Below, one piece after another: positions 23,640 to 39,768 of a stretch of 64,000 nucleotides of DNA. Position numbers and translations under genes: made by a program. Each line of letters starts with the position of its first letter. Position 1 is the first letter of the stretch. Under the pieces are notes generated by a model. The model was not told where the DNA came from. It did not search any database and saw nothing but the letters and a program-made list of their open reading frames with translations. Location: assembly GCF_025136295.1 (NCBI RefSeq), contig NZ_CP062788.1:558001-622000 (forward strand). Direction: 5' to 3'. The stretch comes from Aestuariispira ectoiniformans. Its GTDB lineage: Bacteria > Pseudomonadota > Alphaproteobacteria > UBA8366 > Aestuariispiraceae.

Positions 23640-24431
23640 ATGCGTCTCGTCACGTGGAATATCAATTCCGTCCGCCAGCGCCTGCATCTGATTGAACAAC
23701 TGACCAAGGACTATGCGCCGGACGTCATCTGCCTGCAGGAAATCAAGGCGCAGAACAAGGACTTCCCCTTGGCTGAGATTGAGGCCATGGGATACACCCA
23801 CAACGAAGTCCGGGGCATGAAGGGCTACAACGGGGTGGCGATCCTGTCGCGTGTGCCGCTGGAAAACGGGCAGAGCCGCGACTGGGTCGGCAAGGATGAC
23901 AGCCGTCATGTCTTTGCAACCCTGCCCGGCGGGATCGAAGTGCATAACTTCTACGTACCTGCGGGCGGCGATGTACCGGACCGGGACCAGAACGACAAAT
24001 TCGGTCATAAGCTGGACTTTGTCGACGAGATGAAGGCCTGGTTCCCGGAAATGTATTCCAACGACCGGCCGATGATCCTGGTGGGGGATTTGAATATCGC
24101 GCCCATGGAACATGATGTCTGGTCTCACAAAAAGCTGCTGAAGATCGTCAGCCACACACCGATCGAGGTGGAAAAGCTGAACGACGCACAGAACGCCTTC
24201 GGCTGGGTCGACACCATGCGCCATTTCGTGCCCGACGAGGAAAAGCTCTATAGCTGGTGGAGCTATCGCGCCCGCGACTGGCGCGCCGCCAACAAGGGCC
24301 GCCGTCTGGACCATATCTGGGCAACGCCCGTCCTGACGCCGCGCCTGAAGCACATGGAAGTCATCGTGGACGCCCGTGGCTGGGAAAAACCGTCAGACCA
24401 CGCGCCGGTGCTGCTGGACCTGGAAGACTAG
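23640..24431 (+). CDS. xth: Exodeoxyribonuclease III
   Basis: This AP endonuclease and 3'-5' exonuclease acts in base excision repair. The 263-residue EEP-fold protein starts MRLVTWNINSVRQRL, has the metal-binding E in CLQEIKAQ, GYNGVAILSR, VGDLNIAP with the conserved D and N, WWSYRARDWRAANKGRRLDHIW, and the catalytic SDHAPV. The start is ATG 23640. The stop overlaps the end of the next, convergent gene by four bases. Confidence 0.96.
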   Translation: MRLVTWNINSVRQRLHLIEQLTKDYAPDVICLQEIKAQNKDFPLAEIEAMGYTHNEVRGMKGYNGVAILSRVPLENGQSRDWVGKDDSRHVFATLPGGIEVHNFYVPAGGDVPDRDQNDKFGHKLDFVDEMKAWFPEMYSNDRPMILVGDLNIAPMEHDVWSHKKLLKIVSHTPIEVEKLNDAQNAFGWVDTMRHFVPDEEKLYSWWSYRARDWRAANKGRRLDHIWATPVLTPRLKHMEVIVDARGWEKPSDHAPVLLDLED

Positions 24432-24916
24432 GCCCGGCGATAGAAGAAATAGCGGCCTTCCTGGACACCAGGCGGCAGAGGTTGGCGATAGTCATCCAGT
24501 GCCGTCAGGTCCTGGTCGCTCAAGACAATGGCGCCGGGGGCAAGAAGAGGGGCTATGGCCTCGCCCAGCCAGGCGGCAAAACGGGCATTGCGGTCCGGGT
24601 CCCCGGTGCCGATATCCGAATGGATCATCGCCACCTGTCCGGCAAACCGCCCTGTCGCCTGGGCCAGCGTTTCCTTCAAGTCGCCCAGAAACAGATGATC
24701 GTCATCCGGGATACAGTCGGGATGGGCATTGACGCAGCGCTCAAAGACAAAAATCTCCCTATCCGGGAGTTGCTGACGCAAATGGTCATAGGTGCGCCCG
24801 TTTCCCAACCCCAGTTCCAGGACCACACCAGGATGTCCGGCGATGGCCTCGCAGGCCCTGTTCAGGCAGGCGCGCTGTGCCTCAAGGCGGCGGATCACAC
24901 TATCCAGACGAGACAT
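24428..24916 (-). CDS. Class I SAM-dependent methyltransferase
   Basis: The 162-residue Rossmann protein has motif I VLELGLGNGRTYDHLRQ near residue 31, an acidic strand end (EIFVFER), and a motif IV-like VAMIHSDIGTGDP. AGGGGTAAGGAT precedes ATG 24916. The acceptor is unknown. It follows the cyclic-nucleotide-binding gene by four bases, and the two form an operon. A similar small methyltransferase next to xth occurs in other alphaproteobacteria as far as I recall. Confidence 0.75.
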   Translation of the reverse strand: MSRLDSVIRRLEAQRACLNRACEAIAGHPGVVLELGLGNGRTYDHLRQQLPDREIFVFERCVNAHPDCIPDDDHLFLGDLKETLAQATGRFAGQVAMIHSDIGTGDPDRNARFAAWLGEAIAPLLAPGAIVLSDQDLTALDDYRQPLPPGVQEGRYFFYRRA

Positions 24917-24920
24917 ATCC

Positions 24921-25385
24921 TTACCCCTGTTCGTTACCGGTTTCGCCGCCGCCGTCGCGCAGGCGCCTTGTGGTCTGTACCAGTTTCATCCCCAACTCCC
25001 GCATCAGTTCCAGGCCAATGGACGGAAACTCCTGGATCAGACGCAGGAAAAGCTCCCGGGAAATCACAAGGGCGGTCACATCGGTGCGCGCTGTTACCGT
25101 CGCGGTGCGCGGAACATCGCATAGAACGGCAATTTCGCCAATAATATCATTGGGATGGCAATCATTGACTTTGATGTCGCCGCGCGGCGTCTTCACCGTC
25201 ACGTCGGCATGCCCTTTCACGATGACGAAAGCCGCCTCGCCATCCTCTCCCTCGCGGCAGATAACCGTTCCTGCGGAAAACAGCTTCCGTTCGCTGGTAA
25301 ACGCAATCAGCTTCAGCTTGGACGTCTCGATTTTGGAGAAAAGCGGGATGTTGCGTAGGAGATCGACTTCTTCCTGCAGGGTCAT
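24921..25385 (-). CDS. Single-domain cyclic-nucleotide-binding protein
   Basis: The 154-residue protein is a CRP-type beta-roll without a DNA-binding domain. The core is FSAGTVICREGEDGEAAFVIVKGHADVTV, followed by the phosphate cassette IIGEIAVLCDVPRTATVTA with the conserved E and R that contact cAMP or cGMP. It ends in a helix (LMRELGMKLVQTTRRL). Lacking an output domain, it probably acts by protein contact. Upstream gene of a two-gene operon with the methyltransferase. A class III cyclase lies 13 kb away. Confidence 0.85.
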   Translation of the reverse strand: MTLQEEVDLLRNIPLFSKIETSKLKLIAFTSERKLFSAGTVICREGEDGEAAFVIVKGHADVTVKTPRGDIKVNDCHPNDIIGEIAVLCDVPRTATVTARTDVTALVISRELFLRLIQEFPSIGLELMRELGMKLVQTTRRLRDGGGETGNEQG

Positions 25386-25610: not shown

Positions 25611-26843
25611 GTGGCGAAAAGACAAGATCACGCACGTGTGCTGATGTATAGCCACGACACCTTTGGCCTGGGCCACTTGCGCCGGACCCGCGCCATCGCC
25701 CACGCCCTGGTGGAACAGAACAAGGAGATGTCCGTCCTGATCCTGACGGGTTCCCCCATCATCGGCAGCTTCGATTTCCGCTCACGCGTGGATTTCGTGC
25801 GTATTCCGGGTGTCATCAAATTGCGTAACGGCAATTACACCCCCCTGAAGCTGCATATCGACATCGAAGAAACGCTGGCGATGCGGGCCTCGATCATCAA
25901 ACATACCGCAGAAGCCTTCGATCCGGACCTGTTCATTGTGGACAAGGAGCCGCTGGGCCTGCGCGGCGAGGTCGCCGATACCCTGGTCAGCCTCAAGGAA
26001 AAGGGCACGCCCCTTGTCATGGGCCTGCGCGATGTTATGGACGACCCCGACCTGCTGGCGCCCGAATGGGAACGCAAGAACGTCCTGCCTGCGCTGCGCG
26101 ATCTCTATGACCAGATCTGGGTCTATGGCCTGCCGCAGATCTGCGACCCGCTGGAAGGCATTGCCATTCCCGAATCCGTCCGCCGCAAGATGACCTACAC
26201 CGGTTATCTGAAGCGCGGCCTGCCCAACGAAACAATCCCCCAACACAATCTGAACAAGATCGAAGCCCCCTACATCCTGGTAACGCCCGGCGGCGGCGGC
26301 GATGGCGAGGCGATGGTGGACTGGGTGCTGCGGGCCTATGAGGCGGACCGCGACCTGCCTTATCCGGCGCTTCTGGTTCTGGGGCCGTTTATGAATTCCG
26401 AACCGCAGGCCGATTTCATGGAACGGGCCGACAAGCTGGATAATGTGGAGGTCATCACCTTCGACGCCCATATCGAGGCCCTGATGAACAATGCCGTCGC
26501 CGTGGTTGCCATGGGCGGTTACAACACCTTCTGTGAAATCCTGTCGTTCAACAAGCGCGCCCTGATCATCCCGCGCACCCGCCCGCGCATGGAACAGTAT
26601 ATCCGCGCCAGCCACGCCCAGGATCTGGGCCTTGTGGTCATGATGGAAGACGACAATGACAGGGATGCAGGCCGGATGGCCACCGCATTGCGCCAGCTTC
26701 CGCAACAGCACCGGCCGGGTGACGTGGTGGTACCGGGACTGCTGGACGGGCTTGAAAGCGTCAACAAACTGGCCCTGGCCCAGATATGCAACGCCAATCC
26801 CGGCTATTCCGTTCTGGCGCATGGCGGCCAGCATTCGACCTGA
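25611..26843 (+). CDS. Glycosyltransferase, COG4671 type (first copy)
   Basis: The 410-residue protein begins ARVLMYSHDTFGLGHLRRTRAIAHAL, a signature of the GT-B, MurG-like predicted glycosyltransferases of COG4671. The C-terminal donor site includes ILVTPGGGGDGEAMVDW and the AMGGYNTFCEILSFNKRALIIPR segment. The start is GTG 25611 behind a strong GGAGG. It opens a six-gene run on the plus strand that ends at 31795. Donor and acceptor cannot be inferred from sequence. Confidence 0.85.
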   Translation: MAKRQDHARVLMYSHDTFGLGHLRRTRAIAHALVEQNKEMSVLILTGSPIIGSFDFRSRVDFVRIPGVIKLRNGNYTPLKLHIDIEETLAMRASIIKHTAEAFDPDLFIVDKEPLGLRGEVADTLVSLKEKGTPLVMGLRDVMDDPDLLAPEWERKNVLPALRDLYDQIWVYGLPQICDPLEGIAIPESVRRKMTYTGYLKRGLPNETIPQHNLNKIEAPYILVTPGGGGDGEAMVDWVLRAYEADRDLPYPALLVLGPFMNSEPQADFMERADKLDNVEVITFDAHIEALMNNAVAVVAMGGYNTFCEILSFNKRALIIPRTRPRMEQYIRASHAQDLGLVVMMEDDNDRDAGRMATALRQLPQQHRPGDVVVPGLLDGLESVNKLALAQICNANPGYSVLAHGGQHST

Positions 26844-26907
26844 TACCCCCTGACAGAAACGCCTTTCCGTCCCATATACTTATCAAAACAACGAGTGAAT
26901 TTTCTCC

Positions 26908-28176
26908 ATGGCCGTTGCATTCATCCTGAAAGGCTATCCAAGGCTTTCGGAAACATTCATCGCCCAGGAAATCCGGGGGCTGGAGCGGCGCGGGCTGGAT
27001 ATTCGCATCTATTCCATGCGCCATCCCACCGATAAGGCGCGCCATCCGATCCACAGTGAAATCACCGCACCGGTCAGCTATCTGCCGGAATATCTGCATG
27101 ACGACCCGCTGCGGGTTTTCCGGGCCTGGCGCAAGGTCCGCCGCCTGCCGGGCTATGGCCGGGCCTTCTGGACCTTTGTCGAGGACCTGAAACGCGACCG
27201 CACGCGCAACCGCATCCGCCGTTTCGGGCAGGCCTGCGTGCTTGCCGCCGAACTGCCGGACGATGTGGACCGCCTGCATTTCCATTTCCTGCATACCCCG
27301 GCCTCGGTGGTCCGTTATGCGGCGTTGATGACCAAACTGCCGTGGAGCGGCTCCGCCCATGCCAAGGATATCTGGACCAGCCCGGAATGGGAGCTGCGGG
27401 AAAAACTGATAGAACTGGACTGGGTCAGCACCTGCACCTCCTATGGCGCAGACTACCTGCGCAAACTGGCAGGCAGGGCGGACAAGGTTTCGCTGGACTA
27501 TCACGGGCTGGACCTGGCGCGTTTCGATGATCCGGACAAGACCTATTCCCCCGCAGACGGCAGTGATCCTGACCACGCCGTCACACTCTTGTCCGTTGGC
27601 CGCGCCGTGCCGAAAAAGGGCTATGACGACCTGATGGCCGCCCTGGCGAAACTACCCGGCGACCTGAACTGGAAATTTATTCATATCGGTGGCGGAACGT
27701 TATCCAGCGATCTAAAAGACTGGGCATCCACCCATGGGGTTGCCGACCGCATCACCTGGATGGGGGCGCAGCCGCAGGAAGTAGTGCTGGAACAGTTGCG
27801 CCAGAGCGATATTTTCGTGTTGGCGAGCAAGATTTCCGGCGACGGCGACCGGGACGGCCTGCCCAATGTCCTGATGGAAGCCCAAAGCCAGGGTGTGACG
27901 GTCGCGGCCACACAGGTCTCGGCCATCCCGGAACTGATCCTCGACGGCGAAACCGGGTTGCTTTGCCAGCCTGAAGACCCCGAGGGTCTGGCGGAAATCC
28001 TGCAGCGGCTGATTACCGATCCCGAATTACGTAAACGCCTTGGCCGGGCCGGCAACGCGCGCGTCCGCGAGAGGTTTGAGGCGCAAAGCTGCCTGACCGG
28101 TATCGCCGCACGCTTTGGACTGAACAGCGCCAAGGGGCAAGAAAAGCAGGACGGGAAGGGGGTCAAAGTGGCATGA
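26908..28176 (+). CDS. Glycosyltransferase family 4 (first copy)
   Basis: The 422-residue GT-B enzyme starts VAFILKGYPRLSETFIAQEIRGLERRG, a motif of exopolysaccharide and colanic-acid type GT4 enzymes. It has SVGRAVPKKGYDDLMAAL near residue 230 and the nucleotide-sugar site SKISGDGDRDGLPNVLMEAQSQG near 320, with the conserved E. The gene ends in an ATGA overlap with the next GT4. A retaining mechanism is typical of the family. Confidence 0.9.
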   Translation: MAVAFILKGYPRLSETFIAQEIRGLERRGLDIRIYSMRHPTDKARHPIHSEITAPVSYLPEYLHDDPLRVFRAWRKVRRLPGYGRAFWTFVEDLKRDRTRNRIRRFGQACVLAAELPDDVDRLHFHFLHTPASVVRYAALMTKLPWSGSAHAKDIWTSPEWELREKLIELDWVSTCTSYGADYLRKLAGRADKVSLDYHGLDLARFDDPDKTYSPADGSDPDHAVTLLSVGRAVPKKGYDDLMAALAKLPGDLNWKFIHIGGGTLSSDLKDWASTHGVADRITWMGAQPQEVVLEQLRQSDIFVLASKISGDGDRDGLPNVLMEAQSQGVTVAATQVSAIPELILDGETGLLCQPEDPEGLAEILQRLITDPELRKRLGRAGNARVRERFEAQSCLTGIAARFGLNSAKGQEKQDGKGVKVA

Positions 28177-29282
28177 CGGTGGCCTTTTACGCGCCTCTGA
28201 AATCCCATGACCATCCGGTGCCATCCGGTGACCGCCGTATGGCGGGCCTGTTGTTGAAAGCCCTGCAAAGCATTGATCCGAATACGGAAGTGGCAAGCCA
28301 CCTGCGCGCCTATGAAGGCAAGGGCGACAAGGATGCACAGATCGCCATCCGCGACGCAGCCCTGGCAGAGGCCCATCGTTATGTCGACCAGGGGCACAGG
28401 CCCAAACTGTGGTTCACCTATCACCTGTACCACAAGGCACCCGACTGGATCGGCCCGGCGGTCTCGCGGATGCTGGGCATCCCCTATTGGGTGGCCGAAG
28501 CCAGTTTCGCACCCAAACAGGCCAATGGCCCCTGGGATTTGGGACATAATGCGGTGGAACATGCCCTGCGCGAGGCCGATGGTGTGATCCAGTTGAACCC
28601 CACCGACCGAGGCTGTGTGGAGCCCCTGCTGAAGCCGGGCGCGTCCATCGTCAACCTGCCGCCCTTCCTGGACCCGGCCCCATATTTTCGCGCTGTTCGC
28701 CATCGCGACAGCCTGCGCCGAACGGTGGCGGCGGACCATGGCATCCCGACGGACCGGCCCTGGTTGATCACGGTCGCCATGATGCGGCCCGGCGACAAGG
28801 AAGCTTCTTACCTTCTGTTAGCCGATGCCCTCAACCAATTGTCCGACCGATCCTTTTGCCATTTGATCATCGGGGACGGTCCGGCGGAAAGCAATGTGCG
28901 AAATGCCTTTCAAAATAGGCCTGAAACCTATTTTATCGGGGCCAAGGACAAAACGGATATTCGACGTTATCTGGCCTCGGCCGATCTGTTCGTCTGGCCC
29001 GGCCTGAATGAGGCCTTTGGCCTCGCCCTGCTGGAGGCCCAGGCCAGTGGCCTGCCGGTGATCAGCGCAAGCCGACCGGGCATTGCCGCCATGATCCGCG
29101 ATGAAGCAACCGGCTTGCTGGTCCATGAGGGCGATGCCACCGCCTTTGCCCATGCGGTCGGGCATTTGCTGGACACGCCGGTCCTTTTGACCCGTTTCGG
29201 CAGAGACGCCCTGGACAATATCGCCGACCGGCACAGCCTGGACCAGGCCGCCGCCATTCTTCGGAAGGAATTGGGACTATGA
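28173..29282 (+). CDS. Glycosyltransferase family 4 (second copy)
   Basis: The 369-residue GT-B protein starts VAFYAPLKSHDHPVPSGDRRMAGLL, characteristic of a GT4 subset that often sits beside other GT4 genes. The donor site reads LFVWPGLNEAFGLALLEAQASGLPV near residue 270, with the conserved glutamates. Its start overlaps the upstream stop by four bases, and its stop overlaps the phosphatase start by four. Tight coupling suggests a fixed stoichiometric pathway. Confidence 0.9.
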   Translation: MTVAFYAPLKSHDHPVPSGDRRMAGLLLKALQSIDPNTEVASHLRAYEGKGDKDAQIAIRDAALAEAHRYVDQGHRPKLWFTYHLYHKAPDWIGPAVSRMLGIPYWVAEASFAPKQANGPWDLGHNAVEHALREADGVIQLNPTDRGCVEPLLKPGASIVNLPPFLDPAPYFRAVRHRDSLRRTVAADHGIPTDRPWLITVAMMRPGDKEASYLLLADALNQLSDRSFCHLIIGDGPAESNVRNAFQNRPETYFIGAKDKTDIRRYLASADLFVWPGLNEAFGLALLEAQASGLPVISASRPGIAAMIRDEATGLLVHEGDATAFAHAVGHLLDTPVLLTRFGRDALDNIADRHSLDQAAAILRKELGL

Positions 29283-29875
29283 CCGATCTCGTGATGATCC
29301 GGCATGCGCCTACCGCCTGGAATGCGGAAAAACGCCTGCAAGGCCATACGGATATTCCGCTGACACCGGAAAGCGAGGCAATGGTTCGGCAATGGAGCAT
29401 CCCCCGTAAATTCAGCGACTTTGACTGGCTGACCAGCCCGTTGAGCCGCGCGGCACGCACGGCGGAGCTGCTATATGGCCGCCCCGTCCCCATCGACGAA
29501 CGCCTGTCCGAGATGCGCTATGGTGATTGGGAAGGCGAGGTTCTGCCCGACCTCAGGGCGCGGCTGGGCGAGGAAATGCAGGATAACGAGGACAAGGGGC
29601 TGGACTTCCTGCCGCCCGGCGGGGAAAGCCCCCGGATGGTACAGGATCGCCTGGCCTCGCTGTTGCAGGAAATCGCCGAACGGGAACGGTCGACGGTGGT
29701 GGTTACCCATTTCGGGGTGATCCGCGCGATTTTCGCCAAGGCGGTCGACTGGCCCATGCTGGGCAAGCCGCCGGTCAAGATTTTGCAGGCGAGGGCCCAT
29801 CATTTCCGCCTGGACCCGGACGGCTTTCCGCGTGTGGAAAGCATGAATATTCCTCTGGGGCCGATTGATGTCTGA
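29279..29875 (+). CDS. Histidine phosphatase family protein
   Basis: The 198-residue protein has the RHG-like motif VMIRHAPTAWNAEKRLQGHTDIPLT with the phospho-accepting His (H10), an SPLSRAARTAELL arginine and the second catalytic His in VVVTHFGVIRAIF near residue 143. Relatives include CobC and phosphoglycerate mutase types. Inside a glycosyltransferase run it may remove a phosphate from a sugar phosphate or lipid-linked intermediate; that is inference. Confidence 0.85.
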   Translation: MTDLVMIRHAPTAWNAEKRLQGHTDIPLTPESEAMVRQWSIPRKFSDFDWLTSPLSRAARTAELLYGRPVPIDERLSEMRYGDWEGEVLPDLRARLGEEMQDNEDKGLDFLPPGGESPRMVQDRLASLLQEIAERERSTVVVTHFGVIRAIFAKAVDWPMLGKPPVKILQARAHHFRLDPDGFPRVESMNIPLGPIDV

Positions 29876-31034
29876 CCAACCGGTCCTGTTCTTTCATGTC
29901 CAGCATCTTCTGGGGATCGGCCACCAGATGCGCGCCGCCGCCCTGGCGCGCGCCTGCGCGGTGCGGGGGTTTGACGTGCATTACGCCAGTGGCGGCTTCC
30001 CCGACCGGGAATTCGATCTGGGCGCATCACATTATCATCAGCTTCCCCCGGTCCGGGTGAAAGAAGCGGATTTTTCCAATCTGGTCGACGATGAAGGCCG
30101 TGCAATCAATGAGGACTGGTGGAACAAGCGGCGGGACGCAACACTCGCCCTGTTTGACCGGCTGGCACCGGATATCCTGCTGCTGGAAGGGTTTCCCTTT
30201 GCCCGGCGCAAATTCGCCGCCGAACTGATCCCGCTGATCGACAGGGCGCGGGAGCGCGGCATTCCGGTCGTCACCTCGGTCCGCGATATCCTCGTCACCC
30301 CGTCGAAGGTGGAAAAGCGGGAAAAGGCGCTGGCAATTGCAGAAGATAAACTGGACGCGGTGCTAGTTCACGGCGACCCGGCCCTGATCCGCCTGGAACA
30401 AAGCTTTCCCGGGGCCGACCGCCTTGGCAGCAAGCTTTACTACACGGGTTATGTGGATGGTGGCGAGACCGCCCACCCCGCAGAAGACCGCAGCATGGGC
30501 GAGATCGTCGTTTCCGTGGGCGGTGGCGCCGTGGGCCGGACGCTGATTGATACGGCACTCGCCGCACAATCCACCTATTCGGCAAAGGATAACCGTCCCT
30601 GGCGTATCCTCCTGGGCCCCAATCTCCCTGAAAATTATGTGTCAGACCTAAAATCAAAGGTATTGGACAAAAATATCACCGTGGAACCCGCCCGGCCGGA
30701 CTTCCGTGACCTGCTGGCAAAGGCCGCCCTGTCGATCAGCCAGGCCGGTTACAATACGGTCATGGATATCCTGGCGGCGCATTGTCCGGCCATTCTGGTG
30801 CCCTTTGCCAAAGATAACGAAAATGAACAGAGCCTGCGCGCCCGCCTTCTGGCCGACCACGGGCTGGCACAGATCCTGTCCGAACAGCACTACGGGCCGG
30901 AAGACCTTGCAAAGGCAGTCGAAAAGGCCCTAACACAGGACCGGTCCGCCGATTTCCCCTATGCATTGACCGGTGCCGGGGCAAGCGCGACATTGCTCTA
31001 CCATATGGTTCAGAAAGCACGAGGCCGTTCATGA
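29868..31034 (+). CDS. Glycosyltransferase, COG4671-like (second copy)
   Basis: The 388-residue protein starts VLFFHVQHLLGIGHQMRAAALARA, the same N-terminal plan as the gene at 25.6 kb (G-x-GH and an arginine), and its donor site reads VSVGGGAVG then ISQAGYNTVMDILAAHCPAILVPF. It is clearly diverged from that gene. ATG 29868 is preferred over TTG 29865; it overlaps the phosphatase end by eight bases. It overlaps the deacetylase-like gene by four. Confidence 0.82.
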   Translation: MSDQPVLFFHVQHLLGIGHQMRAAALARACAVRGFDVHYASGGFPDREFDLGASHYHQLPPVRVKEADFSNLVDDEGRAINEDWWNKRRDATLALFDRLAPDILLLEGFPFARRKFAAELIPLIDRARERGIPVVTSVRDILVTPSKVEKREKALAIAEDKLDAVLVHGDPALIRLEQSFPGADRLGSKLYYTGYVDGGETAHPAEDRSMGEIVVSVGGGAVGRTLIDTALAAQSTYSAKDNRPWRILLGPNLPENYVSDLKSKVLDKNITVEPARPDFRDLLAKAALSISQAGYNTVMDILAAHCPAILVPFAKDNENEQSLRARLLADHGLAQILSEQHYGPEDLAKAVEKALTQDRSADFPYALTGAGASATLLYHMVQKARGRS

Positions 31035-31795
31035 TACGCCAAAGCTCTTTTGCCCCCCTGATTGCGGAGCTGGACGCCTGGGCCGATGCCGGCAAGATGG
31101 CCGAATTCTGGTGGCGCGACGACGATGCCATCCGTCAGGGGCCCATTCTGGACCGGCTGTTGCTGACGGCGGGGAAATCCCCGCTGGCGCTGGCGGTGAT
31201 CCCCGGATTGCTGGAAGCCTCGCTGGTTGACTGTCTTGCTCGCCACCCAAACGTTTCGGTTCTGCAACATGGTTGGGTTCATGAAAACCACGCCGGTCCC
31301 GGTGAGAAGAAGGCAGAGTTTCGCCTGAACCGTCCGATCGAGGTGATGCTGGACGAGATAGGCCAAGGATATCAAAAGCTTGAAATGGCATTTGGACCCC
31401 GTTTCGCACCGGTTTTCGTGCCCCCCTGGAACCGGGTGGCGGAAGAGCTGGCCGCACGCCTGCCGGATGTCGGCCTGACGTGGCTTTCGGTCTTCACGCC
31501 GCGCACCGGACGGGAGTTGCCGCCACCACGGATCAATACCCATGTCGACCCCATAGACTGGCACGGCACCCGTGGTTTCCTGGGGATGGAGCAGACCTTG
31601 AACCAGGCGATCGCTCATCTGCGTATGAAACGTCTGGGCCTGCCCGATATCGACATCACCGAACCGACCGGCCTTTTGACTCATCACACCGTCCATGACG
31701 GCGAATGCTGGGCCTTCCTGAATAATTTCAATATGTTGGTTCGCGATCATCCGGCCGCCCGATGGGTGGATATCCGCGACCTCGTCCAAAACTGA
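31031..31795 (+). CDS. Divergent polysaccharide deacetylase-like protein
   Basis: The 254-residue protein has the order expected for carbohydrate esterase 4: an aspartate-rich EFWWRDDDAIRQ near residue 28 (motif 1), LQHGWVHENH near 78-87 with spaced histidines (motif 2), VFVPPWNRV near 125 (motif 3), and a late TGLLTHHTVHD with histidines. No signal peptide is visible. It could deacetylate a glycan intermediate in the cytoplasm, or be an inactive relative. It is the last gene of the glycosyltransferase run. Confidence 0.72.
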   Translation: MIRQSSFAPLIAELDAWADAGKMAEFWWRDDDAIRQGPILDRLLLTAGKSPLALAVIPGLLEASLVDCLARHPNVSVLQHGWVHENHAGPGEKKAEFRLNRPIEVMLDEIGQGYQKLEMAFGPRFAPVFVPPWNRVAEELAARLPDVGLTWLSVFTPRTGRELPPPRINTHVDPIDWHGTRGFLGMEQTLNQAIAHLRMKRLGLPDIDITEPTGLLTHHTVHDGECWAFLNNFNMLVRDHPAARWVDIRDLVQN

Positions 31796-31824
31796 CCCTG
31801 TCCTTGCCGCATCCGGGAATTGCC

Positions 31825-32334
31825 ATGCCATCTGCCGCGCCCTCAACCGTCCTGACCTATGACCGGCCGTCTATCGTGACCGACTATCTGCGCTCCGGCG
31901 TCGGACTGGTGGCAAGCGGTGCGCCGCTCGCCCTGACCAAACCGATGCCCTGGCTGACCTGGGTTCTGGTCGTCACATTTATTTTATTCCTACTCTTCGC
32001 CCTGCGCTCTGTCTTGCGGCATGTCTCGCGCTATCAACTGGACGACGATGGCTTTGAAAGGCTTTCTCCCCGGCCATTGCGGGTGAAATGGTCTGAAATA
32101 GAGGGCATGAAATTGCGTTATTATGCGACCCGGCGCAACCGGGACCAGGATCAGAACAATGGCTGGTTTCAGTTGCAATTGCGCGGAAATAAAGGAAAAA
32201 TCATAATAGATTCAAATCTTGGTAACTTTGATCAGGTTTTGAAATCAACTGCAAGGGCCGCAGGGGTGCGGGGTTTGGCCCTTGATAAGGTGACGCGGGA
32301 CAACCTGTCGGCAATGGGCGTCGCCACACAATAA
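31825..32334 (+). CDS. Membrane protein with a PH-like domain, unknown function
   Basis: The 169-residue protein starts at ATG 31825; the frame extends upstream into the deacetylase gene. A hydrophobic stretch near residues 46-65 (TWVLVVTFILFLLFALRSVLRHV) is followed by YQLDDDGFERLSPRPLRVKWSEIEGMKLRYY, which looks like a small bacterial PH-type domain (W-x-E-I pattern). Whether it belongs with the upstream glycan run or the downstream importer is not clear. Gaps are 29 and 43 bases. Confidence 0.68.
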   Translation: MPSAAPSTVLTYDRPSIVTDYLRSGVGLVASGAPLALTKPMPWLTWVLVVTFILFLLFALRSVLRHVSRYQLDDDGFERLSPRPLRVKWSEIEGMKLRYYATRRNRDQDQNNGWFQLQLRGNKGKIIIDSNLGNFDQVLKSTARAAGVRGLALDKVTRDNLSAMGVATQ

Positions 32335-32377
32335 CCAGTCCGGTCATGCAAACCGGGCTAACTGCGCGGGGAGCAAC

Positions 32378-34288
32378 ATGGACGGACAAGTCCATAACAA
32401 TCTGCTGGAGGTGCGTGACCTCCGCGTCAACTTCGATCTGCCGGAAGGCGTGATCGAAGCCGTCAAAGGCGTGTCATTCCGAATTCCCCATGGCGGCACC
32501 GTCGCCCTTGTGGGCGAAAGCGGTTCCGGCAAATCGGTGGTCAGTCAGGCAATCATGGGCATCCTGCCCAAAGCAGCCTCCATCGTCAGCGGTGAAATCC
32601 TGTTTTGCGATGACATCGCCCGCGCCAAGGGGCGGCCAGTCGATATCTCCCACCTGAATGTGGACAGCCAGCAGATGCGCGACATTCGTGGCGGGCGCAT
32701 CTCCATCATCTTCCAGGAGCCGATGACCTCGCTGTCGCCGCTGCATACCGTGGGCAACCAGATTATCGAGGCGCTTGAACTGCACCAGCCGGTCAAAGGC
32801 GCGCAAGCCGTGGAAATGGCGCGTGATATGTTGCGGATGGTCGGTTTCCCCGATCCCGAGCGGGCGCTGAGAACCTATCCTTTTGAGCTTTCCGGCGGGT
32901 TGCGCCAACGCGCCATGATCGCCATGGCGCTGGTCTGCAAGCCCTCCCTGCTGATCGCGGACGAGCCGACAACCGCACTTGACGTGACAATCCAGGCGCA
33001 GATCCTGAAGCTGATCAAGGACCTGCAGCACGAACTCGGCATGGCGGTCCTCATGATCACCCACGACCTGGGTGTCGTCGCCAATATGGCAGAGGAAATC
33101 GTCGTCATGTATCACGGCGAGGTCATGGAGCATGGCACGCTGGATCATATCTTCCGCGATCCGCGCCATCCCTATCTCAAGGCGCTGCTGCACGCGGTGC
33201 CTCGCTTTGACATGAAGCCGGGGGAGAGGCTGCAGCCGATCCGCTCCATCGAGGCAAAGACCGGCCATCTCATGAAGGAGAGCGCCGCCCCGATTAAGGT
33301 CGCTGATCCTGACAGGCCAATCCTGTCTGTCTCGCATCTGAACAAGACCTATTCGACCCGCAAGACAAGCTGGTTCAGGAAAGGTGAAACGAACCTTGTC
33401 CGCGCGGTCAATGATGTCAGTTTTTCGATCAAACGGGGAAGCTGCCTCGGGCTTGTGGGGGAAAGCGGCTGCGGCAAGACCACGCTCAGCAAAATCCTGA
33501 TGCGCGCACTCACCCCCGACCGCGGGGAAATCCATTTTTACGACGGTCAGCAGGATATGGATGTCCTGGGCCTGAACGAAGGAGAGCTGATCAAATTCCG
33601 CCAGAAGATGCAGTTCATTTTCCAGGACCCGTTTTCGTCGCTGAACCCGCGCATGTCGGTGCAGGACATCATCACCGAACCCCTGCTGATCCACAAAATC
33701 GGTAGCCCGGCGGAACGGAAGGAAATGGCCTCCGAACTGATGGAACTGGTCGGGTTGGACAATCGCCACCTCAACCGCTATCCGCACAGTTTCTCCGGCG
33801 GTCAGCGCCAGCGTATCGGCATCGCCCGCGCGCTTGCCCTGAAACCTGAACTACTGATCTGCGACGAACCGGTTTCGGCCCTGGATGTTTCAATCCAGGC
33901 GCAAATCCTGAACCTTCTCAAGGACCTGCAGGAAAAACTGGGCCTGACCTATCTGTTCATCAGCCATAACCTGGCCGTGGTGGATTATATTGCCGACGAT
34001 ATCGCGGTGATGTGCCAGGGGCGGCTGGTGGAAATGGCGCCGCGCGAGGTTCTGTTCAAGAACCCTCTGCATCCCTATACGCAGGGCCTGTTGACTGCCG
34101 TGCCGGAACCCAACCCGGATAATCCCCTGGACTTCCAGCAGTTGATGACCGGCAAGGCCTCCGATCCCGCCGCATGGCCACATCCTTTCACTGACGACGG
34201 CAGATTTCCGCTTCGTCTTGCCGATGCCGGTGAGGGACATCTGGTGCGGATTACCGAAGGCGCAGACATCAAGGGGGTGGCCGCATGA
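32378..34288 (+). CDS. ABC importer, fused dual ATP-binding protein (oligopeptide type)
   Basis: Two complete ABC domains lie in one 636-residue chain. The first has GESGSGKS, signature LSGGLRQR and [12 protein letters not shown]; the second has [16 protein letters not shown] and [12 protein letters not shown]. Each is followed by the C-terminal extension typical of peptide importers ([13 protein letters not shown] and [14 protein letters not shown]). Fused DppD-DppF types are common in alphaproteobacteria. It is the first gene of a four-gene importer whose genes overlap by one to four bases. Confidence 0.93.
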
Positions 34289-36213
34289 TCCCGATCGTCC
34301 GCCTCAAGACCGTCCTGACGGCTGCTGCCCTGTCGATGATCGTCCTGGCCGCTCCCGCCCGCGCACAGCATTATGTGGACAGTCCCTATTTCATTGATGC
34401 GATCGAGGATGGAAGCCTGCCACGGCTGTCGGACCGCCTGCCTGATGAGCCACTTGTCATGGACGTCACGAAAGACGGCCTGACCCCGGGCCGTCACGGC
34501 GGTGTCATCCGCACGGCCATGCGCCGGTCCAAGGACACCCGCCAGATGGTGGTTTACGGCTATGCCCGGCTTGTCCGTTACGACCGCAATCTGGACATCG
34601 TGCCCGATATCCTGAAATCCGTGGATGTGGAAAAGGGCCGGGTCTTCACGATGCATCTGCGCAAGGGGCATCGCTGGTCCGACGGCGCGCCTTTCACCAC
34701 CGAAGACTTCCGCTATTGGTGGGAGGATATCGCCAATAACGAAAGTCTCTATCCGGTTGGTCCGCCCGCCGCCCTGAAGGTCAACGGCGAACTACCCCAG
34801 GTGCAGATTCTGGACGACTATACCGTTCGCTATTCCTGGTCCGTGCCCAACCCGAATTTCCTGCCCAAACTGGCCGGGGCCTCACCGCTTTATATCTATG
34901 CGCCCGCCCATTACCTCAAACAGTTCCACGCGAAATACCAGTCCCCGGAAAAACTGGAGGACCTGGTGGAAGAGGCCGGGGCAAAAAGCTGGAGTGCGCT
35001 GCACACCAAAATGTCCAAGGCCTATCACAACCAGAACCCCGACCTGCCCAGCCTGCAGCCCTGGACCCTGAAGACCGCACCGCCCAGCCAGCGGTTTGAA
35101 TTTGTCCGAAATCCCTATTTCCATCGCGTTGATTCAAACGGCCTGCAACTGCCCTATGTGGACAAATGGGTGGTGATCGTCACCGAACGCAAGCTGATCC
35201 CGCTCAAAGCCGCCACGGGCGAGGTCGACCTGCAGTCGCGCTATTTGAAGATGGAAGACATTTCGCTTCTGAAACAAAGTGAAGACGAATACGGCTTCAG
35301 CACCAAATTATGGCGCAACGGCAAGGGCGCGCATATGGCGCTGTTCCCGAACCTGACCCATCGCGACCCGAAATGGCGCAAACTGTTGCGGGACGTCCGT
35401 TTCCGGCGGGCGCTGTCGCTCGCGATCAATCGTTATGAGTTGAACCGGGTGATCTATTTCGGGCTGGCGGTGGAAGGGCAGAACACCCTGTTACCGGAAA
35501 GCCCGCTTTATCGCCCGGAATATCGCGAGAAATGGGCCAAATTCGACCTGGACCGGGCGAATAGACTGCTGGATGAAATAGGCCTCACCAAAAAGGACGG
35601 CCGCGGTATCCGCCTGATGCCCGACGGCGAGCCGCTGGAAATCATCGTTGAAACCGCCGACGCCGGTACGGAACAGCCGGATGTGCTGCAGCTTATTTCG
35701 GATTCCTGGGCCGAGGCAGGCGTCAAACTGCATATCAAGCCGACCAGCAACGACATCCTGATGCAGCGGATCTTTTCAGGCGACACGGTCATGACCATCG
35801 CGTCGGGTTGGGAAAACGGCATGGCCACCGCCGACATGGCGCCCGACGCACTCGCCCCGATCCACCAGGACCAGTATCAATGGCCCAAATGGGGGCAATA
35901 TGTGGAAACCGGTGGTGAATCCGGCGAAGCTGTCGACATGGATTCCGCCCGTGAACTGGAACAGCTCTACAAGGCCTGGTATCTGGCGGAAAATGTCGAG
36001 GAAAAGCGCCTGATCTGGCAGCGCATGCTGGACATTCACATGGAAAATGTCTTCACGATCGGGATCATTGCGGGCACGCTGCAGCCCGTGGTGGTCCGCA
36101 ACGGTTTGCATAATGTGCCGGATACCGGCATCTGGAACTGGGACCCCGGCGCCCATTTCGGCGTCTACAGCCCGGACCTGTTCTGGTTTGACGAAGGGGT
36201 GGGAGAAAGCTGA
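34285..36213 (+). CDS. ABC importer, periplasmic substrate-binding protein (SBP family 5)
   Basis: The 642-residue protein has a signal peptide (LTAAALSMIVLAAPARAQ, cleavage after residue 28 or so) and an SBP_bac_5 fold: FTMHLRKGHRWSDGAPFTTEDFRYWWEDI, RRALSLAINRYELNRVIYFG, and a late AEEKRLIW-type helix. It belongs to an alphaproteobacterial subfamily longer than DppA (about 535). Its ligand, likely a peptide, opine or similar compound, cannot be inferred. The start overlaps the ATPase stop (ATGA). Confidence 0.92.
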   Translation: MIPIVRLKTVLTAAALSMIVLAAPARAQHYVDSPYFIDAIEDGSLPRLSDRLPDEPLVMDVTKDGLTPGRHGGVIRTAMRRSKDTRQMVVYGYARLVRYDRNLDIVPDILKSVDVEKGRVFTMHLRKGHRWSDGAPFTTEDFRYWWEDIANNESLYPVGPPAALKVNGELPQVQILDDYTVRYSWSVPNPNFLPKLAGASPLYIYAPAHYLKQFHAKYQSPEKLEDLVEEAGAKSWSALHTKMSKAYHNQNPDLPSLQPWTLKTAPPSQRFEFVRNPYFHRVDSNGLQLPYVDKWVVIVTERKLIPLKAATGEVDLQSRYLKMEDISLLKQSEDEYGFSTKLWRNGKGAHMALFPNLTHRDPKWRKLLRDVRFRRALSLAINRYELNRVIYFGLAVEGQNTLLPESPLYRPEYREKWAKFDLDRANRLLDEIGLTKKDGRGIRLMPDGEPLEIIVETADAGTEQPDVLQLISDSWAEAGVKLHIKPTSNDILMQRIFSGDTVMTIASGWENGMATADMAPDALAPIHQDQYQWPKWGQYVETGGESGEAVDMDSARELEQLYKAWYLAENVEEKRLIWQRMLDIHMENVFTIGIIAGTLQPVVVRNGLHNVPDTGIWNWDPGAHFGVYSPDLFWFDEGVGES

Positions 36214-37208
36214 TGTTCGGATATCTTTTCCACCGCCTGTTCGTGATGATCCCGACGTTGCTGGTGATCTCCGCCCTGGTTTTCATCATCATCCAGTTGC
36301 CGCCGGGTGATTATCTCACGACCATGATCAACGAATTGCGTGCGCAAGGGGAGGTCGGTCAGGAGAAAATCATCTATTACCGGGAGCTTTACGGCCTGGA
36401 TCAGCCCATGATCGTCCAGTATTTCAACTGGCTGTGGGGAATGATCCGCGGCGATTTCGGGCATAGCTTCGAATATGACATGCCGGTCAGGGACGTTATC
36501 GGCGACCGGATGATGCTGACCTTTGTGCTGAATTTCTTCACCATCCTGTTCATCTATATTGTCGCCTTCCCGATCGGCGTCTATTCCGCCGTCCGGCAAT
36601 ACAGCGTCGGTGACTATTCCCTGACCTTTATCGGATATCTGGGCCTTGCCACCCCCAACTTCCTGCTTGCGCTGATCCTGCTTTATATCGCCAAGGCCTA
36701 TTTCGGAACGGATGTCGGCGGGCTGATGGATGAAGACTTTATCGGCCAGCCCTGGAGCGTGGCAAAGGCCGTATCCGTGCTGGAACATCTCTGGGTGCCG
36801 GTGGTGGTGATCGGTACCTCCGGCACGGCTTCCATGATCCGCCGCCTGCGGGCCAACCTGCTGGACGAGCTGCACAAGCAATATGTGATCACGGCCAAGG
36901 CCAAGGGCCTGCCGGCCAGCAAGGCGCTGGTCAAATATCCGCTGCGTATGGCGTTGAACCCGTTTATCGCCGATATCGGCAATCTCATCCCGGATGTGAT
37001 TTCCGGGTCCGCCATCGTCTCCGTCGTCCTGGGACTGCAAACCACGGGGCCGATGCTGCTGAATGCGCTGTTGACGCAGGATATCTATCTCGCGGGCAGT
37101 TTCCTGATGTTCGTCTCATTCCTGACGGTGATCGGCATGCTGGTTTCCGACCTTGCCCTGGCAGCCCTCGATCCCCGAATACGTCTTGGTGCGGAGGCCA
37201 CGAAATGA
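36213..37208 (+). CDS. ABC importer, permease subunit 1 (DppB type)
   Basis: The 331-residue permease begins MFGYLFHRLFVMIPTLLVISALVFIIIQLPPGDYL, the usual DppB N-terminus. It has six hydrophobic segments and an EAA-type loop (RRLRANLLDELHKQYVITAKAKGLPASKAL). Its first base overlaps the last base of the binding-protein stop (TGATG). It pairs with the permease downstream. Confidence 0.93.
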   Translation: MFGYLFHRLFVMIPTLLVISALVFIIIQLPPGDYLTTMINELRAQGEVGQEKIIYYRELYGLDQPMIVQYFNWLWGMIRGDFGHSFEYDMPVRDVIGDRMMLTFVLNFFTILFIYIVAFPIGVYSAVRQYSVGDYSLTFIGYLGLATPNFLLALILLYIAKAYFGTDVGGLMDEDFIGQPWSVAKAVSVLEHLWVPVVVIGTSGTASMIRRLRANLLDELHKQYVITAKAKGLPASKALVKYPLRMALNPFIADIGNLIPDVISGSAIVSVVLGLQTTGPMLLNALLTQDIYLAGSFLMFVSFLTVIGMLVSDLALAALDPRIRLGAEATK

Positions 37209-38389
37209 GCGATACGCCCCGGACAGAACCGCTGGACCATTACGTCAACGACGGTGCATTCGATCCCGACCGCGCCGTGGAACTGACGCCCCAGCAGGAA
37301 AAATACTATCGCGCCTCCCAATGGCAGTTGATGTGGTGGAAATTGAAACGCCACCGCCTGGCCACGGCCAGCGGCATCATCCTGCTCGCCATCTATGTAT
37401 CGCTGCTGGTTTCGGAATTCATCAACCCCTACAACCCCAATTTCCGAAATACGGATTATCTCTATATGCCGCCGCAGGAAGTCCATCTCTTCCACGAGGG
37501 CGACTTTGTCGGTCCCTTCGTCTATGGGGTAATCGTGGAACGGGATATGAAGAACTGGCAGTGGGTCTATAAGGAGAATAAGGCCGACGTCCAGAAAATC
37601 CGCTTTTTCTGCACGGGCAATGACTACGCCGGCGCAGAATACGAATTCTGGGGCCTGTTCAAGGGCGACAGTCACCTGTTCTGCCCGGCCAAGGGCGGCC
37701 ATCTCTTCCTGGCCGGAACCGATCGTCTGGGCCGGGACATGCTGTCGCGGATGGGTTATGGCGGGCGGATTTCACTGACCGTCGGGATCATCGGCATCGT
37801 GATCAGCTTTACGCTCGGCATCGTGATCGGGGGTATTGCGGGCTATTACGGCGGCTTTGTCGATGCCGTGATCCAGCGAGTGATCGAGATTATCCGGTCT
37901 TTCCCGCATCTGCCCTTGTGGATGGCCCTGTCAGCGGCCCTGCCGGTCACCTGGAGCCCGATCTGGGTCTTCTTTGGCCTGACGATCATTCTGGGTATTC
38001 TGGACTGGCCGGGCCTGGCGCGCGCGGTAAGGTCCAAACTGCTCAGCCTTCGTGAGGAAGATTTCGCCGTTGCCGCCCAGTTGATGGGCGCCCGACCGCA
38101 ACGCATCATCATGCGGCACCTGATGCCAAGCTTTACCAGCCACCTGATCGCCTCCGCCAGCCTGTCGATTCCCGCCATGATCCTGGGGGAGACGGCGTTG
38201 AGCTATCTCGGACTGGGCCTGCGCCCGCCGGTGATCAGTTGGGGCGTGTTGCTGAACGAGGTGCAGAACATCAACGACGTGGTCCTGCACCATTGGCTGA
38301 TCTACCCGATGCTGTCGGTGATCCTGGTGGTGCTGGCCTTCAATTTCCTGGGCGACGGCCTGCGCGACGCCGCAGACCCGTATAAGTAG
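37205..38389 (+). CDS. ABC importer, permease subunit 2 (DppC type) with a periplasmic insertion
   Basis: The 394-residue permease has its first membrane segment at about residues 58-76 and the rest after residue 195 (MLSRMGYGGRISLTVGIIGIVISFTLGIVIG). The roughly 100 residues between are polar and include two cysteines (FFCTGND, LFCPAKG) about 25 residues apart, which could form a disulfide. Ordinary DppC proteins have about 30 residues here and are near 300 in length. The EAA loop is EEDFAVAAQLMGARPQRIIMRHLMPS. Confidence 0.92.
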   Translation: MSDTPRTEPLDHYVNDGAFDPDRAVELTPQQEKYYRASQWQLMWWKLKRHRLATASGIILLAIYVSLLVSEFINPYNPNFRNTDYLYMPPQEVHLFHEGDFVGPFVYGVIVERDMKNWQWVYKENKADVQKIRFFCTGNDYAGAEYEFWGLFKGDSHLFCPAKGGHLFLAGTDRLGRDMLSRMGYGGRISLTVGIIGIVISFTLGIVIGGIAGYYGGFVDAVIQRVIEIIRSFPHLPLWMALSAALPVTWSPIWVFFGLTIILGILDWPGLARAVRSKLLSLREEDFAVAAQLMGARPQRIIMRHLMPSFTSHLIASASLSIPAMILGETALSYLGLGLRPPVISWGVLLNEVQNINDVVLHHWLIYPMLSVILVVLAFNFLGDGLRDAADPYK

Positions 38390-38400
38390 GTCCGATACGG

Positions 38401-39768
38401 TCAGGACAGGACAAACAATGTGATCGGGGCCGATACACCGTCGACTGCCTCATCCGGCAATTCCTTCAGGGACTTCGGCTGCGGTCTTGGCTGCCATCCC
38501 TGTTCACGGGCCAGACGGATCGTTTCCCGGTCACAAAGCGCATGCGAGCCCAGCACCTTATTGTGCTTTTCCAGTTTCGCACTGAGGTTCACCGGTGTTC
38601 CGACGACGGTGTATTCCAGCCGGTTTTCATCCCCCACGACCCCGAAGATCAGCACCCCGGACGCCGCCGACACCGCCACGTCGATCACTGGCAGGCCCTT
38701 TGCGTAGCGTTCGTCATTCCAGGCCCGCGCCGCGTCCAGCACGTCCTCCATGGCGTATAAGGCATCACGGGCGAATGTATCGCTGGGCCGGGCCGCCCCG
38801 AAACTGACCATGATGCCGTCGCCGAGGAATTTATCGACGCTGCCGCCATATTTCTGGATTACCGGCAGGATATGAGCCTGATATTCCGACAGAAGCTGCA
38901 TCACCTGTGGTGGTAACATGGTTGCCGCCAGTTTGGTGAAACCGCGAATATCCACATTGACCACACTGCCAGTGCAGGTTTCCCCCTGTCCGGCCTGCAA
39001 GTTTCCATCCGCGCCCTTGATCCGTTCCGCCACCTCGGGCGCGAAGAAACGGCTGAGGGCCTGTTTCTGGATTTCCCCTGTCACCGCCTGCAGCAGAAAG
39101 CGCCGTCCGCGCATCAGGGCAAAGGTCAGGATCACGGTAACGGTGACAATGGTGATCACCTTGTCGAATTCACCGCCCAGAAGCACGAGGTTATCCGTAA
39201 GATAGGCCACATAATCCCGCGTGATCCGCGACATCCCGTCGTCCACCGAAAAGACCGCATATCCCACCATGCCCAGCCAGCCCAACGCCGCCGCCAGACC
39301 TGTGTAAAACACATGGCGCGGGTCAAACCGCAGGGTCCGAAGGGCAATGAAGATAAAGACATAAAGCATCGTCGGTGCCTTCAGGTAGAACACCGCAGGC
39401 TGATTGTATTGAATATGAAAACTCCAGATGATCCCGAAGAGCAGGACCAGATCCACCAGACCGGACAGGCTCAGATACCAGTCAGGCAGGGAATAGCGAT
39501 AGGACAGAACCAGACGCAGGGCCGTAAAGATCAGATAGAGACAGAGGCCCCAGGGAACGGGCGATCCCCAGAAACCGGACATATGGGTCTTGGGCGAGAT
39601 GATGTAGAGCAGACCGAACAGCAGAACCACGGACAACTGGAACCAGCCGATCAGCCTCTCGCTTTGGTCCTGTTGCTGGCGGAAGGCGGCTTCAATGCGG
39701 CGGGGCAGGGCCTGAAAATCCCGAAAACCGAAAAACAGCGACCGGATAATAGCCAGGACGGAACGCAT
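38401..39768 (-). CDS. Membrane-bound class III adenylate/guanylate cyclase
   Basis: The 455-residue protein has about six N-terminal hydrophobic segments to residue 225, then a cyclase domain. The metal-binding aspartates are in VVNVDIRGFTKL and GDGIMVSFG, the base-reading lysine in GGSVDKFLGDG (K suggests ATP), and LEYTVVGTPVNLSAKLEKHNK holds the transition-state N and neighbouring residues. Ends in a short regulatory tail. It converges on the importer, with 11 bases between. A CNMP-binding protein is at 24.9 kb. Confidence 0.92.
   Translation of the reverse strand: MRSVLAIIRSLFFGFRDFQALPRRIEAAFRQQQDQSERLIGWFQLSVVLLFGLLYIISPKTHMSGFWGSPVPWGLCLYLIFTALRLVLSYRYSLPDWYLSLSGLVDLVLLFGIIWSFHIQYNQPAVFYLKAPTMLYVFIFIALRTLRFDPRHVFYTGLAAALGWLGMVGYAVFSVDDGMSRITRDYVAYLTDNLVLLGGEFDKVITIVTVTVILTFALMRGRRFLLQAVTGEIQKQALSRFFAPEVAERIKGADGNLQAGQGETCTGSVVNVDIRGFTKLAATMLPPQVMQLLSEYQAHILPVIQKYGGSVDKFLGDGIMVSFGAARPSDTFARDALYAMEDVLDAARAWNDERYAKGLPVIDVAVSAASGVLIFGVVGDENRLEYTVVGTPVNLSAKLEKHNKVLGSHALCDRETIRLAREQGWQPRPQPKSLKELPDEAVDGVSAPITLFVLS

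Follow-up and report, generated by a model that had tools for sequence, protein, structure and literature searches.

A conserved alphaproteobacterial gene unit for a putative surface glycan and its exporter-like candidate partner protein

The six putative glycan-assembly genes A to F at positions 25611-31795 of the 64-kb stretch of the Aestuariispira ectoiniformans genome analyzed here (hereafter the window; C1:558001-622000 of genome G000, a single contig of 4.36 Mb) form a true unit that is kept together in many Alphaproteobacteria. On balance, we favor the view that they supply the biosynthetic part of a conserved system for a surface glycan, which would be exported under cyclic-nucleotide control by a protein that we designate c10. 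This partner is an MsbA/glucan-exporter-like ATP-binding cassette (ABC) protein of about 870-1190 amino acids (aa), encoded beside gene A in families other than the window's own. Judged from sequence, its ATPase motifs are systematically degenerate, which is the most novel point of the analysis.

Gene content of the unit

A first-pass annotation of the window had described six plus-strand genes within 6.2 kb, mostly overlapping by 4-8 bases. All six open reading frames (ORFs) were confirmed:

Gene A, 25611-26843, plus strand: 410 aa, GT28-type (COG4671-like) glycosyltransferase (PF04101 Glyco_tran_28_C, 32.8 bits)
Gene B, 26908-28176, plus strand: 422 aa, GT4 glycosyltransferase, EpsE/WcaL-like (PF00534, 111 bits)
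Gene C, 28173-29282, plus strand: 369 aa, GT4 glycosyltransferase (PF13692, 91 bits)
Gene D, 29279-29875, plus strand: 198 aa, branch-1 histidine phosphatase (PF00300, 135 bits)
Gene E, 29868-31034, plus strand: 388 aa from ATG, 389 aa from an upstream TTG at 29865, GT28-type glycosyltransferase (PF04101, 63.5 bits)
Gene F, 31031-31795, plus strand: 254 aa, divergent NodB/CE4-type polysaccharide deacetylase (structure prediction and motifs)

Overlaps are present at four of the five junctions (4 bp at B/C, C/D and E/F, 8 bp at D/E), and a 64-bp gap lies between A and B. The GC content at third codon positions (GC3) of the genes, 0.69-0.77, is consistent with coding sequence. The functions predicted earlier hold as well, by Pfam for A to E and by structure and motifs for F. 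Gene A is the most conserved of the six, with a mean pairwise identity of 67% among 84 sequences, and within its residues 301-309 M-G-G-Y-N and C-E are invariant (16 sequences). Gene E is a distant paralog of A (25% identity over residues 17-371). In gene D, the residues R8, H9, R57, E78 and H144, which we take to be the catalytic set, are invariant in 19 of 19 aligned sequences.

Gene F matched no Pfam or NCBIfam family, deacetylase models included, at E<=0.1. Its AlphaFold model (predicted local distance difference test, pLDDT, 96.2; predicted TM-score 0.93) has the NodB fold; the top Foldseek match was 3rxz (E 4.6e-8), and deacetylases made up the majority of the top matches. D30-D32, H80, H84, P131/P132, N134/R135 and H218/H219 are invariant among 47 sequences, and the Asp and His-xxx-His residues presumably serve metal binding and catalysis. 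Because the model, the structural matches and the invariant D/H/H motif agree, we regard F as a polysaccharide deacetylase. Inspection of its sequence by eye, without a predictor, revealed no signal peptide.

The first-pass annotation knew of no characterized pathway with this gene set, and neither do the sources consulted here: the curated profiles gave no match to a characterized pathway, and narrow searches of open-license papers gave no description of the locus among the papers listed. NCBIfam scores for A to F were all under the respective cut-offs (for B and C, among the matches listed), including EpsE, MshA, BshA, CobC, MJ1255 and MurG. Gene A reached 46 bits against the MJ1255/VC2487 subfamily (cut-off 195.9), and a profile search of the PDB with A returned nothing at E<=0.01. 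Gene B scored 137.7 against the EpsE equivalog (cut-off 400), 77.2 against WcaL (537.6), 66.3 against MshA (462.5) and 59.6 against BshA (273.7); gene C scored 60.1 against MshA (462.5) and 73.6 against BshA (273.7); and gene D scored 108 bits against CobC, the alpha-ribazole phosphatase (162.9). With profile scores under these cut-offs, a mycothiol/bacillithiol or cobalamin-type pathway was rejected.

Conservation across Alphaproteobacteria

Our less biased sample is a class-wide draw of 240 evenly sampled alphaproteobacterial genomes, A. ectoiniformans included, with thresholds of E<=1e-70 for A and c10 and E<=1e-20 for F. Gene A was detected in 77 of these genomes and F in 70. Both were present in 68, A without F in nine (G045, G070, G098, G112, G164, G165, G180, G267, G278) and F without A in two (G106, G113). 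Where both lay on one contig they were at most 8 kb apart in 51/54 genomes. In a second sample of 59 genomes (A. ectoiniformans and 58 relatives, E<=0.001), A was found in 43 (40 with a match of 1e-100 or better) and F in 37. Of 30 long stretches from 27 genomes, picked among genomes with A or F matches, 20 contain all six genes, usually followed by a gene designated h9 and a four-gene ABC importer. The neighborhood check that had been proposed thus shows that the genes travel together. The idea that six genes stand alone is not supported, as h9 and the importer follow them in the window too. As exceptions, the unit is split between two places in G037, G039 and G041, all of one genus; F is missing from the long stretches of G021, G030 and G045; and one stretch ends within the unit.

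The named loci, from GTDB genomes, are the best 80 of at least 588 ranked by gene A and are therefore biased to its close relatives. Among the 58 with at least 8 kb past A, the order ABCDEF is kept in 36, h9 was found in 45 and the importer ATPase in 51. Four Azospirillum-type exceptions carry genes on the far side of c10, three of them E, F, h9 and importer genes, the fourth F, h9 and importer genes. L177, with a betaproteobacterial label, has all six genes; two Kiloniella loci have an additional E-like gene and no F match; and L131 and L194 hold little besides A (plus B in L131). L182, a low-GC contig of a metagenome-assembled genome (about 30% GC3), carries A-B-C-D-E-c10-h9-importer ATPase on a single strand in one continuous run, without F. 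In-frame fusions join A and B in two loci (L069:6362-8818, L161:147-2627) and D and E in two others (L151:4266-6098, L174:13612-15444), while an apparent BC fusion in L085 was rejected as an artifact of C matching B. Correlations of sequence distances among unit genes, with E and the cyclic-nucleotide-binding (cNMP) gene left out, were 0.36-0.79. However, those of A, B, C, D and F with the neighboring methyltransferase MT17, taken as control, were 0.22-0.58, and since the control reaches 0.58 the test does not discriminate. Distance values for E are unreliable, as the best match may be A where E is missing. Most clusters of recurrent neighbors were dropped by eye, as they appear to be antisense frames. 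Two records, L138 and L120, hold loci of alphaproteobacterial type under the titles Mycobacterium sp. KBS0706 and Mesoflavibacter sp. ih5; these titles look misassigned, because L138 and Inquilinus have nearly identical c10 proteins.

The exporter-like partner protein c10

Within the class-wide draw, c10 was detected in 79 genomes. A and c10 occur together in 75, A without c10 in two (G067, G112), and neither in 159. The distance between c10 and A is at most 3 kb in 50 of the 77 genomes that contain A. Of the 64 named loci with sufficient sequence, 45 carry c10 upstream of A; among the 19 others, L182 and L189 carry it downstream of E. In families other than the window's own, c10 is mostly about 870-1000 aa long and usually stands between A and the cNMP gene, in opposite orientation to A, and in some loci the cNMP domain is fused to it. 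In family f19, A and c10 are both present in one genus (G189) and both absent from another (G057). Each of the 14 genomes of the window's family has a c10 open frame of 1042-1097 aa that is distant from A or on a different contig; a further copy adjoins A in G008 alone. The c10 of A. ectoiniformans itself (C1:1899939-1902554, 1042-aa open frame) is 1.3 Mb away from the unit and ends in a fused, CRP-like cyclic-nucleotide-binding domain. As no copy adjoins A in this genome, the link between A and c10 rests here on co-occurrence.

c10 matches PF00664 (80 bits), the transmembrane domain of ordinary ABC exporters, and PF00005. For the c10 of L071 (L071:13134-15797), the best NCBIfam profile was MsbA with 213.7 bits, at a cut-off of 602. 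Its nucleotide-binding domain (NBD) is split: in the one c10 aligned, residues 461 and 784 correspond to residues 496 and 523 of ABCB4, and the alignment indicates that the NBD holds an insertion of about 300 residues. For motif counts, 81 ORFs were reduced to 79 by dropping identical sequences, and columns were taken from one MAFFT alignment. The Walker A lysine is kept in 51/79 and replaced by arginine in 19/79, and a Ser/Thr follows in only 8/79. The Walker B aspartate is present in 3 sequences, 59 having N and 12 having S at this position; the next glutamate is kept in 55. The H-loop histidine is kept in 24/79, and the two glycines of the signature motif are seldom found (8 and 7 of 79). 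Two inserted N-x-x-F-G segments are nearly invariant throughout. In the c10 of A. ectoiniformans, the motif sites read GASGTGRD, LLIVND and WITDS.

In a tree of the 79 sequences, the 15 fusions (>=1020 aa) are all on the same side of one branch (Shimodaira-Hasegawa-like approximate likelihood ratio test 98). Two plasmid sequences have long branches that meet, and their placement is unsure. A ManC-like gene was seen near the fused c10 of two genomes of the window's family (L112:13968-15413, L113:11140-12567).

Flanking genes in the window

The following features flank the six genes:

MT17 methyltransferase, 24428-24916, minus strand: usual neighbor of the cNMP gene (PF12692, 190.8 bits)
Stand-alone cNMP protein, 24921-25385, minus strand: divergent from A (PF00027, 73.6 bits)
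h9, 31825-32334, plus strand: 169 aa, membrane protein with two long helices and a PH-like beta domain, after F in most relatives
ABC importer ATPase, 32378-34288, plus strand: two NBDs, peptide/oligosaccharide-type (PF00005 twice, oligo_HPY)
Importer family-5 solute-binding protein, 34285-36213, plus strand (PF00496, 190.7 bits)
Importer permease 1, 36213-37208, plus strand (PF00528)
Importer permease 2, 37205-38389, plus strand: by position and by homologs annotated as ABC transporter permease, outside the Pfam scan
Class III adenylate/guanylate cyclase, 38401-39768, minus strand: convergent with the importer (PF00211, 34.6 bits, cut-off 21.9)

A to F, h9 and the four importer genes constitute one probable 11-gene unit (25611-38389). 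The association with MT17 is probably synteny only. The Pfam scan of the unit genes, which left out the permease at 37205-38389 and did not extend to the rest of the genome, detected neither Wzx, Wzy or Wzz nor KpsMT or a GT2 synthase. A scan for promoters and terminators did not rise above shuffled sequence (1 promoter-like site against a mean of 4.9, 9 terminator-like sites against 11.3). h9 is modeled with a pLDDT of 94; it had no Pfam match at E<=0.1 and no Foldseek match at E<=0.001, the best being a weak one to a chain of the NOX2-p22phox-EROS complex (E 3.2e-3, TM-score 0.34). The importer resembles YejABEF and oligopeptide importers in its ATPase with two NBDs, its family-5 binding protein and its two permeases. 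It differs from them in that its ATPase reached only 522 bits against YejF (cut-off 834) and 606 against GsiA (cut-off 1077).

Possible cyclic-nucleotide connection

Ten other loci hold relatives of the window's cyclase (>=45% identity), which in nine of them lie at the importer end and in L195 upstream of A. A cyclase, which we take to be CHASE2-like, also adjoins c10 in two genomes of the window's family. Cyclases thus adjoin the unit or c10 in several gene arrangements. The phosphate-binding-cassette pattern of cNMP domains, which we presume to be that of CRP, is present in 57/59 domain sequences from the named and plasmid loci (three of them in c10 fusions, three weakly similar) and in 13 of the 15 c10 fusions. 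This pattern and the fusions of c10 to its sensor suggest that a cyclic nucleotide controls c10 directly. In L141 and L152, with unspecific or betaproteobacterial titles, a cyclase relative (31-34% identity) lies no more than about 1.5 kb upstream of A.

The locus in other lineages and on plasmids

Shorter versions were found in Rhizobium etli (plasmid pA), R. phaseoli, R. johnstonii (pRL11) and Sinorhizobium meliloti (pSymB) in the order importer-A-B-E-c10-cNMP, and those of Rhizobium and Sinorhizobium adjoin a class III cyclase and a UDP-glucose-type dehydrogenase. On pA of R. etli CIAT 652, genes annotated as redA and redB are orthologs of A (53%) and B (54%). As in our set of genes, an E-like transferase, c10 and a cNMP protein belong to this locus, there following A-B, and the same importer is present, but upstream; unlike the window, the locus lacks C, D, F and h9. 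A narrow literature search found no paper on these gene names among those listed, and in the excerpts of PMC6200981 that the search returned, redA appears only as the name of an author. In Shinella, relatives of F and C are nearby.

The S. meliloti version includes a PF14099 polysaccharide lyase (L203:4669-5646), which was matched only in two S. meliloti records of 130 searched, and a gene before c10 that is annotated as a methyltransferase and had no Pfam match at E<=0.001. The S. meliloti genes SMb20804 and SMb20805 are, in the excerpted text of PMC5539429, tied to capsular polysaccharide (KPS) together with kdsB2. We did not equate them with the S. meliloti locus as homologs, because no kdsB-like gene was seen by eye in the 25-kb stretch around it.

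On plasmid p4 of Azospirillum lipoferum 4B, c10 is followed by the importer and then by A to F, and Azospirillum contigs likewise keep the linkage. An uncharacterized locus on plasmid pDSM109990_b of Sulfitobacter dubius shares with the A. ectoiniformans system the order A-B-C-D-E-F, a c10 fusion, which there follows F, and importer permeases, two of which are there upstream; it differs by a dehydrogenase at the head. More distant is the cluster on Escherichia coli plasmid pCFSAN004179G (L208:12010-22188), where relatives of A (33% identity) and B (34%) are adjacent, as in the window. Unlike the window, this cluster lacks D, E and F and holds a canonical 604-aa ABC exporter and a protein annotated as alginate export family, besides a GT4 enzyme, a dehydrogenase and two annotated phosphotransferases, one of them confirmed by PF01636; its genes run GT28-GT4-GT4-ABC-phosphotransferases-alginate export-dehydrogenase. 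The same plasmid also carries an annotated enterotoxin gene. Genes for nucleotide-sugar dehydrogenases neighbor the unit in R. etli, R. johnstonii, S. meliloti, Shinella, Sulfitobacter and L070 (a genome of the same order as A. ectoiniformans), and one is present in the E. coli cluster.

Discussion

According to the mechanism that we propose, A and B would make the core linkage on the cytoplasmic face. That they act first is suggested by their wide presence, their adjacency and the two fusions. C and E may add further residues, while D might take phosphate off an intermediate or by-product, and F would de-N-acetylate an amino sugar ahead of export, as NodB does. c10 is the predicted transporter that would move the product across the inner membrane, and the cyclases beside the locus might make the cyclic nucleotide that sets its traffic. 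h9 may aid the assembly or anchoring of the membrane machinery, although the role of an assembly factor is only a guess, and the importer may recover glycan fragments. The glycan probably contains a hexuronic acid and a de-N-acetylated residue; mannose is less certain. The uronic acid is read from the dehydrogenase, lyase and alginate-export-annotated neighbors in other lineages and not from the window itself, and a uronic-acid glycan, possibly a polymer, would fit the dehydrogenases, the S. meliloti lyase and the E. coli annotation. More tentatively, one might speculate that the locus belongs to an undescribed alphaproteobacterial glycan secretion system, in which a cyclic-nucleotide signal rather than ordinary ATP hydrolysis gates the delivery of the A-F glycan by c10; we consider this possible, yet doubtful.

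Several observations weigh against export of such a glycan by c10. As expected for ABC-dependent export, a candidate dedicated exporter is linked to the transferases in 50 of the 77 genomes with A, yet it is unlinked in A. ectoiniformans, and its ATPase motifs are not intact; since these NBD motifs are degenerate, active transport by c10 is doubtful. In 13 of the 14 genomes of the window's family, A. ectoiniformans among them, no c10 adjoins A. c10 occurs without A in four of the 240 genomes (G086, G113, G210, G251) and, in the relatives' sample, in G024 and G033 of genus g16. The Fisher tests of co-occurrence, among them that of A with F (p 5e-47), ignore shared ancestry. In the Rhizobiaceae, the gene row does not include C, D, F or h9, and L152, L167, L172 and L186, with betaproteobacterial labels, lack D. 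As to the sugars, the S. meliloti dehydrogenase had no match in the whole 64-kb window and matched 8 of 130 records, six of them from Rhizobiaceae, while ManC lies near c10 in two records only.

What the first-pass annotation had proposed instead is a glycan that is short and fixed in composition, carried by a lipid, protein or small molecule and made in the cytoplasm. On this reading no dedicated exporter would be needed, and c10 would co-occur for some other reason. The window's unit indeed encodes neither a flippase nor a polymerase or exporter; the four GT-B transferases look soluble and, with the phosphatase and the deacetylase, suit a short, defined product; and the Rhizobiaceae retain only three transferases in line. 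However, A and c10 are found together in 75 of the 81 genomes that have either, and c10 is close to A (<=3 kb in 50/77 genomes with A) and linked to it in differing gene orders. The absence of an export ABC protein was rightly noted for the six genes but is misleading as a statement on the pathway, as c10 co-occurs with A and adjoins it in other families. We regard this alternative as unlikely, while a short glycan of fixed composition as such is neither shown nor excluded. Somewhat less probable still is that c10 does not transport at all but, in response to cyclic nucleotides, regulates or scaffolds the glycosyltransferases at the membrane, with export by another, general ABC protein or with a product retained in the membrane. 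Such a role is favored by a Walker B aspartate in 3/79, an H-loop histidine in 24/79 and a Ser/Thr after the Walker A lysine in 8/79 sequences, as well as the fused sensor domain and roughly 300 additional residues inside the NBD. Yet the transmembrane domain is of the ordinary exporter type (PF00664, 80 bits), the Walker A lysine and the glutamate after Walker B are kept in 51/79 and 55/79, and the distant E. coli A-B cluster holds a canonical exporter at the same place.

We see little room for a divergent form of a known capsule, lipopolysaccharide (LPS)-core or exopolysaccharide (EPS) pathway. B resembles EpsE/WcaL, and relatives of the unit carry nucleotide-sugar dehydrogenases, but the NCBIfam scores, the lack of Wzx, Wzy, Wzz, KpsMT and GT2 synthases among the unit genes scanned and the narrow, open-license literature search all point the other way. 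Conserved gene order as a mere remnant of an ancestral chromosome, with no joint action of the genes, is the least probable explanation and very hard to uphold. Order is retained around the unit too, as MT17 and xthA-like neighbors show, and the unit genes correlate with MT17 in sequence distance over a range (0.22-0.58) that overlaps the values among the unit genes themselves. The linkage, however, outlasts plasmid transfer, local rearrangement and the shift to low GC; A-B and D-E are fused in places, and genes overlap by 4-8 bp; and the sister genera of family f19 have A and c10 either both or not at all. That A, B, c10 and the importer stay linked in different gene orders counts for joint function.

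About a third of the sampled alphaproteobacterial genomes (77/240) keep gene A, and legume symbionts have the shorter plasmid version. If biosynthesis by A-F and export by c10 under cyclic-nucleotide control hold true, one more surface glycan would have to be added to EPS, KPS, LPS and the cyclic glucans, and a cyclic nucleotide would control a transporter instead of transcription. In Nod-factor assembly (NodC/NodB/NodIJ), a cytoplasmic transferase, a NodB-fold deacetylase and ABC export act together. This is a parallel in the way of working and not a comparison of orthologs, as no GT2 synthase or acyltransferase is present among the unit genes scanned. With MsbA, NdvA-ChvA and PglK, c10 shares the exporter transmembrane domain. 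It differs from them by scores far under the cut-off, by the split and apparently degenerate NBD with its insert of some 300 residues and by the cNMP domain, and would thus be a case of an ABC protein that retains its architecture while losing its catalytic motifs.

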